Source: Colwellia sp. PAMC 20917 (GTDB lineage: Bacteria > Pseudomonadota > Gammaproteobacteria > Enterobacterales > Alteromonadaceae). Taken from it: a stretch of 64,000 bases of DNA. A program made the position numbers and the translations under genes. Where the stretch lies: NCBI RefSeq assembly GCF_001767295.1, contig NZ_CP014944.1, positions 2,480,001-2,544,000 on the forward strand. The letters run 5' to 3'. Below the pieces are notes generated by a model. That model worked only from the letters and a program-made list of their open reading frames with translations. It did not search any database and was not told the DNA's origin. Shown here in pieces: positions 10,709-55,202 of the stretch (the stretch's first letter is position 1; the number at the start of each line of letters is the position of its first letter).

Positions 10709-12883
10709 ATGGACGTTTCTGAACTACTTGAGTCACTCAATGAAAAACAACGAGATGTTGTCGCCGCTCCACTACAAAATATGTTGGTATTAGCTGGCGC
10801 AGGAAGTGGTAAAACTCGGGTGTTAGTGCAACGTATTGCCTGGTTAATGCAAGTTGAAAACGCCTCTTCTCATAGTATTTTAGCCGTTACTTTTACCAAT
10901 AAAGCCGCAGCAGAAATGCGAGTGCGTGTTGAAAAAACAGTTGAGGGTAATGTTCATGGTATGTGGGTCGGTACTTTCCATGGTTTAGCCCATCGCTTAC
11001 TCCGTATGCATTTTCAAGAAGCTAAATTACCACAGAATTTTCAAGTGCTTGATTCAGATGATCAACTGCGCTTAGTTAAGCGCATCGTACGTTCGTTAGG
11101 TATTGACGAAAAACGTTGGCCACCCAAGCAGATGCAGTGGTATATCAATGGAAAAAAAGATGAAGGCATTCGTCCACAGCACATAGAGGTTTACGATGAT
11201 CCCACTGAGCAAACATTTGTTAAAGTTTATCAAGGATATCAAGAAGCTTGTGATCGAGCCGGTTTAGTCGATTTTGCCGAGTTATTATTGCGTGCCCATG
11301 AACTTTGGTTGAATAACCCCGTTTTGCTTGCCCATTATCAGCAACGCTTTAAACATATTTTAGTCGACGAATTTCAAGACACCAATGCCATTCAATACGC
11401 CTGGTTAAATATTCTGGGTAACGCATCGAGTAAGGTGATGATTGTTGGTGATGACGACCAATCAATTTACGGCTGGCGTGGCGCAAAAATTGAAAATATT
11501 CAGCGTTTTCTTAATGAATTTGACGACACGAAAACTATACGTTTAGAACAGAATTACCGCTCCACAGCTAATATTCTTAATGCGGCTAATAAACTTATCG
11601 CCAATAATAATAACCGCTTAGGTAAAAAGTTGTGGACCGAAGATGAAGCGGGCGAAAAAATATCTATTTATACGGCATTCAACGAAATAGACGAAGCTCG
11701 CTTTATTGCCGGTCGAATTACGGATTGGCGTAAAGAAGGCAGCTTAGATGATGTCGCTATTTTATATCGCAGTAATGCGCAATCTCGTTTACTCGAAGAA
11801 GCGCTCTTGCAGAGTCGTTTACCTTATCGTATTTACGGTGGTCAACGTTTCTTTGAACGTTTAGAGATTAAGGATGCACTTGCTTACTTACGCTTATTAA
11901 ATAATCGCGATGATGATGCGGCTTTTGAACGTATTATTAATACCCCAACACGTGGCGTTGGTAATACTAGCCTATCGTTAATACGTGACGCTGCGCGCAG
12001 TTTAGAAATGACATTATGGCAAGCGTGTCAATTTATGCTAAAAAATGATGAATTGAAAGGACGAAGTGCGAAAGTCATTCAAAATTTTATTAATATTATC
12101 AACACTCTCGAAGATGACTCTAGCCACCTTGACCTCGACCAACAGGCCAACTATGTTATTCAGCACAGTGGTTTAAAAGCCATGTATCAAGCTGAAAAAG
12201 GTGAACGTGCCGAGGCAAGAATAGAAAACTTAAATGAGCTTGTTACCGCTTGTCAGACCTTCGAAGCGGACCCAGAGTTAATAGAAGAACAAACAAAGCT
12301 CACCTCATTTTTAACCCATGCTGCCCTTGAGGCTGGCGAGTCACAAGCCGATGATTATGAACCCGCTGTGCAGTTAATGACTATGCACTCTGCGAAAGGT
12401 TTAGAGTTTCCATTAGTGTTTATTGCCGGCTTAGAGGAGGGAATGTTTCCCTCACAAAAATCAGTAGAAGAAATAGGACGTTTAGAAGAGGAAAGGCGTT
12501 TATGTTACGTCGGCATGACACGTGCTATGAATAAGCTATACTTGTGTCATGCAGAAAGCCGCCGACTTTATGGACAAGAAAAATTTCATAAAGCCAGTCG
12601 TTTTTTACGGGAATTACCTCCTGAGTGTACCGAAGAAATAAGATTACAAAATCAAGTGACTCGTCCATCAACTAAAGGTAAGTTTTCATCGACCTTTACT
12701 CTGGAAACGTTTGAGAACAGCGGCTTTAGTTTAGGACAGTCAGTTGTTCATGCTAAATTTGGTGAAGGCGTTGTCTTAAATTATGAAGGTTCAGGAGCTC
12801 AAAGCCGTATTCAAGTTAATTTTGCTGGTGTAGGTAGTAAATGGCTGGTGGTCGCCTATGCTAACTTACAAGCCATCGTTTAA
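10709..12883 (+). CDS. uvrD: DNA helicase II UvrD
   Basis: 724 aa, usual UvrD length. Superfamily 1A 3'-5' helicase for nucleotide excision and mismatch repair. Walker [10 protein letters not shown] (motif I), [13 protein letters not shown] (Ia), DEFQDTN (II), [13 protein letters not shown] (III), LEQNYRS (IV), MHSAKGLEF (V) and RLCYVGMTRAM (VI) are all present. The C-terminal ~45 residues (VVHAKFGEGVVLNYEG to the end) form the Tudor-like domain that binds RNA polymerase in UvrD. That separates it from Rep, whose gene is also in this window at 46.6 kb. Confidence 0.97.
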   Translation: MDVSELLESLNEKQRDVVAAPLQNMLVLAGAGSGKTRVLVQRIAWLMQVENASSHSILAVTFTNKAAAEMRVRVEKTVEGNVHGMWVGTFHGLAHRLLRMHFQEAKLPQNFQVLDSDDQLRLVKRIVRSLGIDEKRWPPKQMQWYINGKKDEGIRPQHIEVYDDPTEQTFVKVYQGYQEACDRAGLVDFAELLLRAHELWLNNPVLLAHYQQRFKHILVDEFQDTNAIQYAWLNILGNASSKVMIVGDDDQSIYGWRGAKIENIQRFLNEFDDTKTIRLEQNYRSTANILNAANKLIANNNNRLGKKLWTEDEAGEKISIYTAFNEIDEARFIAGRITDWRKEGSLDDVAILYRSNAQSRLLEEALLQSRLPYRIYGGQRFFERLEIKDALAYLRLLNNRDDDAAFERIINTPTRGVGNTSLSLIRDAARSLEMTLWQACQFMLKNDELKGRSAKVIQNFINIINTLEDDSSHLDLDQQANYVIQHSGLKAMYQAEKGERAEARIENLNELVTACQTFEADPELIEEQTKLTSFLTHAALEAGESQADDYEPAVQLMTMHSAKGLEFPLVFIAGLEEGMFPSQKSVEEIGRLEEERRLCYVGMTRAMNKLYLCHAESRRLYGQEKFHKASRFLRELPPECTEEIRLQNQVTRPSTKGKFSSTFTLETFENSGFSLGQSVVHAKFGEGVVLNYEGSGAQSRIQVNFAGVGSKWLVVAYANLQAIV

Positions 12884-51886: not shown

Positions 51887-51903
51887 TGTCAGTTTTTTTT
51901 ACA
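51887..51903 (+). promoter_or_regulatory. Upstream motif of the first PEP-CTERM gene
   Basis: TGTCAGT-(TTT)-TTTTACA lies 81 bp before the GG of the -24 element. The same motif with AAA in the middle lies 79 bp before the -24 element of the second PEP-CTERM gene. Probable activator (UAS) site; the protein is unknown, PrsR being the obvious candidate. Confidence 0.5.
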
Positions 51904-51966
51904 GTATTATTATATATAAATTTTATCGAACTTCCATAATATTGAAATAATTAAGTTTTATAAGTT

Positions 51967-51981
51967 TGGCGTATTTTTTGT
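51967..51981 (+). promoter_or_regulatory. Candidate sigma54 promoter of the first PEP-CTERM gene
   Basis: TGGCGTA-TTTT-TTGT: GG at 51968-51969 and GT (instead of GC) 10 bases later at 51980-51981, 86 bp from GG to the ATG. The last base departs from the usual -12 GC; the position is matched by the second gene. Confidence 0.5.
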
Positions 51982-52053
51982 ATTAAAATAAAGATATCAA
52001 TAAATTACTATTACCTACCAAAGTTTATGGAAAGGGATTAAAAGGAAGATTAA

Positions 52054-52650
52054 ATGAAGTTTAAATTTTTAAAAATCGCAATAGCAGCCTTAGTCGTACT
52101 ATCAACGACAGTCACTCATGCGAACTTGATTGTAGATGGTGGATTTGAATTTGGACAAGCCACAGGTACTGCTAGCACATCAAGCGGTTATGGTGCGTGG
52201 TCAACTATAAGCGGTCAAACGTACCTGCTAGGTATGCCTTATGCGGGGATGTCGACTCTTGAAGGATTAAATGCAATGCATGTTGGGAATGGCTATGGCT
52301 TTGGCTATGTCGAACAATCCTTCGCAACCAACATCGGGTCCTTATACGAGCTCACGTATTCAATGATAGGTTGGAGCGGAGGAGCCGGTCGTGTTAGTGC
52401 TCATCTCTACAACACAGGGACTACAGATCTAATTACCGGTCTATCGACGGGCGGGGGATGGGTTACTGGGAGTTTCACTTTTACGGCTAGCAATACTTTA
52501 ACTACATTAAAGCTCCAAAATGTTAGTGGTGCATCAACTGTCGATGATGTCAGTTTGATAAGTGTCGCAGTACCAGAGCCATCAACAATTGCTATTTTTG
52601 CATTAGGAATGATTGGTTTAGTATCACGTCGATTTAAGAAACAAGCTTAA
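52054..52650 (+). CDS. PEP-CTERM surface protein
   Basis: 198 aa. Signal peptide (1-23, VTHA-NL), then a beta-rich domain beginning NLIVDGGFEFGQATG that resembles the DUF642/choice-of-anchor galactose-binding fold. A PEP-CTERM sorting tail follows: VPEPSTIAIFALGMIGLVSRR, i.e. PEP motif, hydrophobic helix and basic end. Exosortase should cleave it and anchor or release it at the cell surface; no exosortase gene is in this window. GGAAGATTAA precedes the ATG. Possibly part of a biofilm or extracellular matrix set with the next PEP-CTERM gene. Confidence 0.88.
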   Translation: MKFKFLKIAIAALVVLSTTVTHANLIVDGGFEFGQATGTASTSSGYGAWSTISGQTYLLGMPYAGMSTLEGLNAMHVGNGYGFGYVEQSFATNIGSLYELTYSMIGWSGGAGRVSAHLYNTGTTDLITGLSTGGGWVTGSFTFTASNTLTTLKLQNVSGASTVDDVSLISVAVPEPSTIAIFALGMIGLVSRRFKKQA

Positions 52651-52674
52651 TAATTTAAAATTGTTTTACTACGG

Positions 52675-52706
52675 AAAACATCAATTGTCATGACTGATGT
52701 TTTTTT
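52675..52706 (+). terminator. Terminator after the first PEP-CTERM gene
   Basis: AAAACATCA (52675-52683) with TGATGTTTT (52695-52703), followed by further Ts. Confidence 0.85.
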
Positions 52707-53635
52707 GTTTCTGGTGATTGGTAACTGTAAAAAATATCGACACCTAATGGTTTCTTAATAGTTAATTCATTAAAAACCACTACCGTAGGATTAAGTATCC
52801 TTTGTTATATCATACGTGTAAAAGCCTTCAGGCACTTTAACTGATTATTCAGCACGACTTGTGTGATTTTTATAGTTTTTGACAAAAAGCCATCCATATA
52901 TAACCAATCCTTTTTACGAATAATTGTCGAAATGGTAGCAGTTAAATAAGCAAAGGCTTATGTCAGCTATCGTATCTAAGAAGACATTAAGCTTTTCAGA
53001 ACATTAGATCAACTAAGCGCACTTTTTTGACGTTAGCTTTTGGTGAGGGCAAAGCTACCAGTGATCATTGTTCTAAGGTCACTAGCTGCCACATTCGAGA
53101 CCTTTTCTAACACCCTAAATCAGCACTAAAATGGTCTTCTCTGATACGAAAGAAGACCTTAACCTTGGCTTATCTATCGACATTTGAACCGATGAAAATC
53201 AGTCCTGCGTTAGATAATAGAATTGTTCTAAATTTCATCAGGAATCTATAAAGTCAAAAATTATAATTTGATTAGAAAATACCAAAGCGGACATTAGGTT
53301 AATATGATTTTAGGTATTAAATTTTTGTGATTCTATGGCGCTTCGGGTCGGATAGACGACACCTGTCACCTAATTTTATTAACATTGCATTAAGTGCCAC
53401 TTAGACCCAACGCCCTGTAAAATATGGAGTTATAAAAATAAAAATAAAAACAAAATATAACTGTTCATAACTAAATTTTTGTCCCGTATTTGACCCAACA
53501 AAAAAAGTACAATTTAAGTATAAGTGCGCGTAGTCTAGCTGTTTTAATCTCGGAAAATATTCTGATCACTATTTACTAGCTAATCATCTTATTCAACAAA
53601 GTTATTTATTTTAAAATTAATATGTTAGGGCAAAC

Positions 53636-53652
53636 TGTCAGTAAATTTTACA
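53636..53652 (+). promoter_or_regulatory. Upstream motif of the second PEP-CTERM gene
   Basis: TGTCAGT-(AAA)-TTTTACA, identical to the motif before the first PEP-CTERM gene at 14 of 17 positions (all but the middle triplet). It lies 79 bp before the -24 element. Confidence 0.5.
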
Positions 53653-53713
53653 CTTTTAAGAAAACACAAGAAACCAAAATTAAAAAACCATAAGCATCAA
53701 TGAATTACAAATT

Positions 53714-53728
53714 AGGCATACATTTTGC
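53714..53728 (+). promoter_or_regulatory. Sigma54 (-24/-12) promoter of the second PEP-CTERM gene
   Basis: AGGCATA-CATT-TTGC: GG (53715-53716), ten bases, then GC (53727-53728), the canonical spacing. The GG is 87 bp from the start codon, one base different from the first PEP-CTERM gene. Confidence 0.65.
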
Positions 53729-53801
53729 CTGCACCTGTCAAGTTGGATTTTTTACATACTTATCATAATCATATAAATAAAAATAAAGAAAAGGATTTTC
53801 A

Positions 53802-55202
53802 ATGAAAGTTACATTTCTCCCCCTTGCCTTAGTGTGCTTTACAAGTTTTAATGCGGTTTCAAGCTTAATTGAACCCAAAGTTTCTTACTGGAAAGTTACC
53901 ACCAAATCAACCGCAATTAACGCTGATGCTCATACATCAGGAGCTGAAGGCGACAGTTACAACGGACACACCATACAAGATGGTACTTACCAATATGATT
54001 CTCAGGCAAATTATGGAGTTTCTCAGGCAAATAGTAGCGTTGAGCTGAAAGTTAATGATGGGACGACAACAATGTCTGGAGCAGTTTCAGGTAGTAAAGG
54101 AACTCAAACTAGAGAAGTTCCTACATGCCCAACAAATGATTGCGTTTATCTAACAGATGATCCAAATGGATACCCTGATCCATATACAACTGTTATTGAA
54201 GAAGTAGATGGAGGCGCACATAGTATGGGTAATTCTAGGATTACTTATAATAATATAGATTCCAAAACTGGTGACTATGCAAGGACGTCAAAAGAAAAAT
54301 TTGTCGCTACAATACAGTTTCAGGCTGATGGAGATAACGGAGATCTAGGGTGTGGTCTAAACTGTGATGGCTCCTATGATATAACTTCATGGGCCGATTA
54401 TTGGCGACTAGGCGGACTGGGAGTAGAAGATTTATCTATTTCAGTAATAAATGAGTTTGGTAAAGCCACTAGTTACTACGAGGAGTTAGGAGGTTCTATG
54501 CTTAGTAGCGGGATACTATCAAGTAAGAACATTGAAAGCCAAAACTCCACAATAGTAATAGAAGGTACTTATGAGGGAGCTATAGATCTTACAGTAGGTT
54601 CTCGTGGGAATTTATGGCTAGACGGTTGGTCTAACGATAGTGGTAAAAGAGCATACCAAGATTCATATACTGCTTCAATAATTACGGGTGAAGGGGCAAC
54701 TCAAGAAACCCCTTTCATGCCTGATGATATTGGTGAAGATGGAACATTCTTTTTCACTGATGCTGTCTCTGGCGGTTGGTATGACCCAGATCCATGGGAA
54801 TCATTTTTATTCGAAACAACTGATGGTGGTTTGTTTAGCGATATTTTAGGTTTCCCCGCTGGTTTTGGTGATATGTTTGATATTTTCTACCAGCAAGGCG
54901 ATGAGTGGAACTTGCTTGGTGATTTTGACTTAACTGAAAATGTTGATTTCAGTAGTTTAATAGGCTTTGACGTAGATAAGTTTATTGTATCAGGAATTGA
55001 TAGTAATGATGATCAACATCAATTTCCAATACAGCTTGGCTTTGCACAAAGTTCTACAGATTTTTCAATGAAAGGCGTAAAGATAAGTGACTATTACTCT
55101 CAAAATTCATCAGGTAATTCAACTGAAGTACCAGAGCCAAGCTCTTTAGCAATCTTTGCTTTATCACTACTAGGTCTTATGCGCTTAAGAAGAAAAGTTT
55201 AA
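53802..55202 (+). CDS. PEP-CTERM surface protein
   Basis: 466 aa. Signal peptide (about 1-20), then a long beta-rich, acidic and G/S/T-rich region without a domain I recognise. It includes a paired-cysteine stretch (CPTNDC near 111, CGLNC near 182) and a D/E/F-rich segment (residues ~310-400). The C-terminus VPEPSSLAIFALSLLGLMRLRRKV is a textbook PEP-CTERM anchor. AAAGGA precedes the ATG. Presumed exosortase substrate exported to the outer surface; partner of the 52.0-kb gene by shared promoter architecture. Function unknown. Confidence 0.87.
   Translation: MKVTFLPLALVCFTSFNAVSSLIEPKVSYWKVTTKSTAINADAHTSGAEGDSYNGHTIQDGTYQYDSQANYGVSQANSSVELKVNDGTTTMSGAVSGSKGTQTREVPTCPTNDCVYLTDDPNGYPDPYTTVIEEVDGGAHSMGNSRITYNNIDSKTGDYARTSKEKFVATIQFQADGDNGDLGCGLNCDGSYDITSWADYWRLGGLGVEDLSISVINEFGKATSYYEELGGSMLSSGILSSKNIESQNSTIVIEGTYEGAIDLTVGSRGNLWLDGWSNDSGKRAYQDSYTASIITGEGATQETPFMPDDIGEDGTFFFTDAVSGGWYDPDPWESFLFETTDGGLFSDILGFPAGFGDMFDIFYQQGDEWNLLGDFDLTENVDFSSLIGFDVDKFIVSGIDSNDDQHQFPIQLGFAQSSTDFSMKGVKISDYYSQNSSGNSTEVPEPSSLAIFALSLLGLMRLRRKV

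Follow-up and report, generated by a model that had tools for sequence, protein, structure and literature searches.

Two adjoining PEP-CTERM genes in a 64,000-nucleotide stretch of Colwellia sp. PAMC 20917 DNA (the whole stretch is called the window below) are each preceded by a similar pair of short motifs, which raises the question of what type of promoter drives them. A comparable motif pair was reported by Haft et al. in 2006 (PMC1569441), who found a 17-nt motif 1 ending in TTTACA upstream of proteobacterial PEP-CTERM genes, followed after a spacer of 62.8 +/- 10.6 bp by a -24/-12 motif 2 located 71 +/- 38 bp from the start codon. Their set pooled Colwellia psychrerythraea among others, and PrsK/PrsR were proposed, with PrsR as the binder (PMC1569441; TIGR02915, TIGR02916). 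The motif pair and its assignment to PrsR are already published, and the window promoters are a further instance. We assign to each of the two genes, with a probability of about 0.9, a sigma-54 promoter of its own that serves that gene alone, is of the PrsR class (PrsK-PrsR regulon) and belongs to the exosortase/PEP-CTERM system.

The two promoters of the window

The features of both genes are collected in Table 1, and a check of the sequence located both boxes and both sigma-54 elements where the initial annotation had placed them. Both products are signal-peptide-like, with a PEP-CTERM tail, and that of gene 1 additionally shows sub-threshold similarity to choice-of-anchor C / DUF642. The sigma-54 element starts 86 bp ahead of the ATG in gene 1 and 87 bp ahead in gene 2, and the distance from the start of the box to the GG is 81 and 79 bp, respectively. 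The -12 element of gene 1 is GT, not GC, with an otherwise strong match to the matrix described below. The box had been annotated as TGTCAGT-N3-TTTTACA, with which both copies agree exactly, but the T at position 7 is coincidental and varies randomly across the larger set of sites analyzed. This set comprises 117 intergenic sites, kept from 120 composite sites (PrsR box plus sigma-54 promoter) of PrsR-positive relatives and five of the own genome; the box reads TGTCA(G/A)-N-[AT]3-T-TTTACA across them, and, as the sites were selected by motif, conservation of the box within the searched pattern does not count as independent evidence. A weaker box-like copy, TGTCGATATTTTTTACA (window 52726-52742, minus strand, 16.7 bits), lies between genes 1 and 2, with no sigma-54 site.

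Table 1. Features of the two PEP-CTERM genes and of their upstream regions, in window coordinates
Feature	Position	Strand	Evidence or remarks
PrsR box, gene 1 (motif 1 of Haft 2006), TGTCAGTTTTTTTTACA	51887..51903	+	Sequence, imperfect dyad TGTCA-N7-TTACA; relatives' matrix 26.3 bits
IHF-like site, gene 1	51935..51947	-	Reverse orientation at -33 relative to the GG; scores 9.5 of 12 at this register
Sigma-54 promoter, gene 1, TTGGCGTATTTTTTGTATT	51966..51984	+	Sequence and matrix; GG-N10-GT, GG 51968, GT 51980
Gene 1, 198-aa PEP-CTERM protein	52054..52650	+	PF07589 30.1 bits, TIGR02595 24.5 bits, both above cut-off
PrsR box, gene 2 (motif 1), TGTCAGTAAATTTTACA	53636..53652	+	Sequence; relatives' matrix 23.8 bits
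IHF-like site, gene 2, CATCAATGAATTA	53695..53707	+	Forward orientation at -20 relative to the GG; scores 11 of 12 at this register
Sigma-54 promoter, gene 2, TAGGCATACATTTTGCCTG	53713..53731	+	Sequence and matrix; GG-N10-GC, GG 53715, GC 53727
Gene 2, 466-aa PEP-CTERM protein	53802..55202	+	PF07589 26.0 bits, TIGR02595 21.3 bits, both above cut-off

The two upstream regions agree closely with the description of Haft et al. Both window boxes are 17 nt long and end in TTTACA, the spacers are about 62 and 60 bp when motif 2 is counted from 2 bp before the GG, a -24 GG is combined with a -12 GC in gene 2 (GT in gene 1), and about 70 bp separate motif 2 from the start codon of the PEP-CTERM gene in both cases. 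As to prsK-prsR, the genome has an intact prsK and a prsR that is split into two frames in the Colwellia sp. PAMC 20917 assembly. A further difference is that the spacer was given in 2006 as a mean with an SD of 10.6, without helical phasing or IHF. The pepA gene of Aquincola tertiaricarbonis RN12 is also a PEP-CTERM gene with a -24/-12 element, in this case mapped and RpoN1-dependent, and a predicted upstream enhancer (PMC9850573); this promoter, of another bacterium, was tested experimentally, whereas those of the window are known from their sequence.

The initial annotation considered the motif pair unlikely to arise by chance, and our controls bear this out. TGTCAGTN3TTTTACA occurs in the window only at 51887 and 53636, is absent from all 100 dinucleotide-preserving shuffles of the window, and has no other exact copy in the whole 4.68 Mb genome. 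Moreover, with a weight matrix derived from 112 sites in other genomes, the own genome being excluded, the window sites rank first and second (42.8 and 40.0 bits), more than 23 bits ahead of the next score of 16.7. The one observation that would favour chance matches in AT-rich DNA is that GG-N10-GY alone occurs at chance frequency (485 window matches versus 478.5 expected). It was consequently rejected as evidence in its own right, and becomes informative only when it is read as the extended element and in relation to its spacing from the box; chance as an explanation of the whole arrangement has a negligible probability. A recent local duplication, in place of functional constraint, might also explain why the upstream regions of two adjoining genes, both encoding PEP-CTERM proteins, are alike. 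We regard this as very improbable, because nothing outside the motifs is alignable beyond a weak AT-rich similarity: blastn between the two regions returned no match below E = 0.1, and in an ungapped comparison they are 33-44% identical outside the motifs, compared with 26 +/- 6% for random 64-mers of the window. The regions are thus not an obvious recent duplication as judged by their sequence. In addition, the two IHF-like sites are oppositely oriented, and the module also precedes nine other PEP-CTERM genes around the chromosome.

Distribution of the module and association with PrsR

A scan of the whole genome for the motif pair, proposed in the initial annotation, was carried out by pattern searches and by the analysis of extracted stretches, and it revealed the expected enrichment. 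The strict composite had five matches (control: 1), all before PEP-CTERM genes, and the relaxed composite (TGTCN7WTTACA, 46-76 bp, GGN9TGY) had eight (control: 2), seven of them before PEP-CTERM genes. The eighth (G000:C1:4435575-4435663, L316) has no convincing downstream gene and was taken as a chance match. PF07589 has 23 matches above cut-off in this genome, of which five belong to a single gene, as its terminus and the tandem copies of its tail, and three to degraded or truncated reading frames, and 16 PEP-CTERM genes were judged intact. With a threshold of 32 bits, the relatives-only matrix detected the module before 11 of these 16; at this threshold it was not found before the other five (L005, L009, L010, L017 and L023).

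The five tandem copies, at G000:C1:1203872-1204726 (L021:727-1581), have a period of about 173 bp and reproduce a PEP-CTERM gene's 3' end, each encoding a variant sorting tail. By its sequence this array resembles a cassette array, in which recombination could exchange or remove the tail. PEP-CTERM tails ending truncated or degraded genes were observed in L014, L015 and L018 (G000:C1:224127, 18376 and 3244592, respectively), and an IstB-like transposition gene adjoins L015.

As regards the regulator, the initial annotation suggested a PrsR binding site and control by RpoN and PrsK-PrsR. This suggestion is supported by the positions of the composites before PEP-CTERM genes, by the presence in the genome of an intact PrsK (713 bits) and of RpoN (510 bits), and by the distribution of the composites among relatives. 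IHF-alpha (160 bits) and one exosortase (TIGR02602, 193 bits) are also encoded. PrsR (TIGR02915) was found in 38 of 60 related genomes, and the mean number of composite matches per genome is 4.4 with PrsR and 0.36 without it, the 22 PrsR-negative genomes having eight matches in total. At least two composite matches were found in 34 of the 38 PrsR-positive genomes and in one of the 22 PrsR-negative genomes (Fisher P = 3e-11), and the association was kept within the family (30 PrsR-positive versus 6 PrsR-negative genomes, P = 3e-4); both P values overstate independence, as the genomes are mutually related.

It is important to mention that prsR itself is frameshifted in the own genome while the sites look intact, and that several other NtrC-family regulators score below the PrsR cut-off in this genome. 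Both facts would fit a sigma-54 regulon run by another NtrC-type activator, with PrsR merely correlated. We nevertheless consider this improbable, because the composites track PrsR among the relatives, also within the family, and because prsK-prsR lie within the XrtA/PEP-CTERM locus.

In the PrsR-class assignment, a signal would be sensed by PrsK, a membrane histidine kinase, which would phosphorylate PrsR, an activator of the NtrC type. The dyad TGTCAG-N4-TTTTACA, some 80 bp before the -24 GG, would be the binding site of PrsR. IHF would introduce a bend at a fixed position immediately ahead of the promoter, and the looped PrsR would then drive open-complex formation by the RpoN-dependent (sigma-54) polymerase at GG-N10-G(C/T). 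Several surface-matrix proteins would consequently be made together.

Helical phasing and the IHF-like site

The spacing between box and promoter, the register of an IHF-like site and the identity of the downstream genes were not used in selecting the 117 sites, apart from the allowed gap range. The box-to-GG distances fall into three groups, 67-71 bp (18 sites), 77-83 bp (88 sites) and 90-92 bp (11 sites), and no distance of 72-76 or 84-89 bp was observed among the 117 sites; clusters would be visible within the searched span of 65-95 bp only. The distance from box to promoter moves in steps of about one helical turn.

Between enhancer and promoter, an IHF-like site, resembling the E. coli consensus WATCAANNNNTTR, is present at a conserved register in both window promoters. 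In the 117 sites it recurs at two mirror-image registers, in reverse orientation at -33 to -31 and in forward orientation at -21 to -18 from the GG, which have one footprint in common. In each of the three distance classes, the register is tied to the promoter and not to the box. A score of at least 9.5 at -34..-30 (reverse) or -22..-18 (forward) was reached by 71% of the 117 sites and by 9% of dinucleotide shuffles, as well as by 8 of 11 own-genome sites and by 4 of 8 matrix matches in prs loci, which were collected by PrsR similarity and are mostly from other gammaproteobacteria.

The sequence of this middle element suggests that it is probably a functional IHF site. It could instead be AT-rich curved DNA, since the region is AT-rich, gene 1 has a moderate match (9.5 of 12) and the IHF site is a sequence prediction; the promoter class would be unaffected. 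We find this unlikely in view of the difference between observed and shuffled spacers and of the two mirror-image registers with a single footprint. Moreover, sigma-54 promoters commonly have IHF placed between the enhancer and the promoter (PMC7962754); in IHF-assisted promoters, such as those of the nif type, the site lies between the enhancer and the -24/-12 element, as does the IHF-like site of the window promoters. The difference is that the window site is predicted and that its register is constant throughout one regulon, whichever its orientation. Neither IHF nor helical phasing at these promoters is mentioned in PMC1569441, and searches of the open-licence literature on PEP-CTERM or exosortase together with IHF yielded nothing on these promoters, which is weak evidence of absence.

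Targets in relatives and the split prsR gene

The genes downstream of the 117 sites mostly encode PEP-CTERM-like tails: 95 were classed as such by script (65 via a P-x-P pattern and 30 via a hydrophobic-plus-basic tail) and about seven more by eye, compared with 2 of 531 control ORF starts. Many of the targets (L113-L232) end in variant tails such as SAPAS, SEPS or NEP in place of PEP, so that searches with the strict PEP-CTERM consensus may miss substrates. Some targets of the relatives are not PEP-CTERM proteins. Three of them (L123, L126 and L207) form a Tat-signal family with a common GACSVSGAMSGN stretch, no PEP-CTERM tail and no Pfam or NCBIfam family above cut-off, and each of these genes is followed by a small ORF and then by HprK-related kinase A (TIGR04352). 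Homologues were found in 12 of the 60 genomes (L322-L333), all 12 PrsR-positive, and not in the own genome. The composite, at 29.6 bits or more, lies upstream of 10 of these 12 genes, four of which were already among the composite matches and six of which were found by protein similarity alone.

The helical steps, the fixed-register IHF-like site and the presence of the Tat-signal family in the regulon of relatives are additions to the 2006 account; the IHF-like site, the phasing and the split prsR frame were also absent from the initial annotation. It is likely that the PrsR promoter of the Colwelliaceae, and of some other gammaproteobacteria, is a phased module of three parts, in which the box shifts by whole helical turns and an IHF bend site, in either orientation, is fixed to the sigma-54 promoter, and that the regulon reaches beyond exosortase substrates to the Tat-signal family, at three loci clustered with HprK-related kinase A.

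The prsR gene of Colwellia sp. PAMC 20917 (G000:C1:2206134-2207458, minus strand; L317:10117-11468) is, as assembled, split by a one-base frameshift into a first frame of 320 aa, which spans positions 1-311 of the model, and a second of 121 aa with the DNA-binding end. The break falls where the conserved IPPLRDR stretch is encoded, within five consecutive C. Programmed frameshifting was rejected, as the other 37 PrsR-positive genomes (of 60) encode PrsR in one frame. Seven neighbours of prsR were compared with Colwellia sp. DT_20 (L233), the nearest relative found, and align in single frames, so the prs region is not generally error-ridden; a homopolymer miscall could still be the source of the frameshift. 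The maintained appearance of the promoters and of the other PEP-CTERM genes favours a recent event or a sequence error. Because of the frameshift, the regulon may be silent in the strain as sequenced. Additionally, a gap of about 830 bp, composed of repeating GTCATGCTGAAC.../GATCCTGAAATAAATTCAGGATGACG units (G000:C1:2207468-2208299; L317 about 11469-12300), separates prsK from prsR; the gap is some 30-55 bp in the relatives L233-L235.

The split prsR reflects either the loss of the regulon or an error in the sequence. A regulon that dates as a prediction from 2006 and has seen little testing since then is confirmed here with controls, and two testable mechanistic parts, the predicted IHF site and the helical phasing, are added to it, as is a family of targets other than PEP-CTERM proteins. 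The matrix is also a practical finder of exosortase-linked surface-matrix genes, including those whose C-terminal tails are off the PEP consensus.
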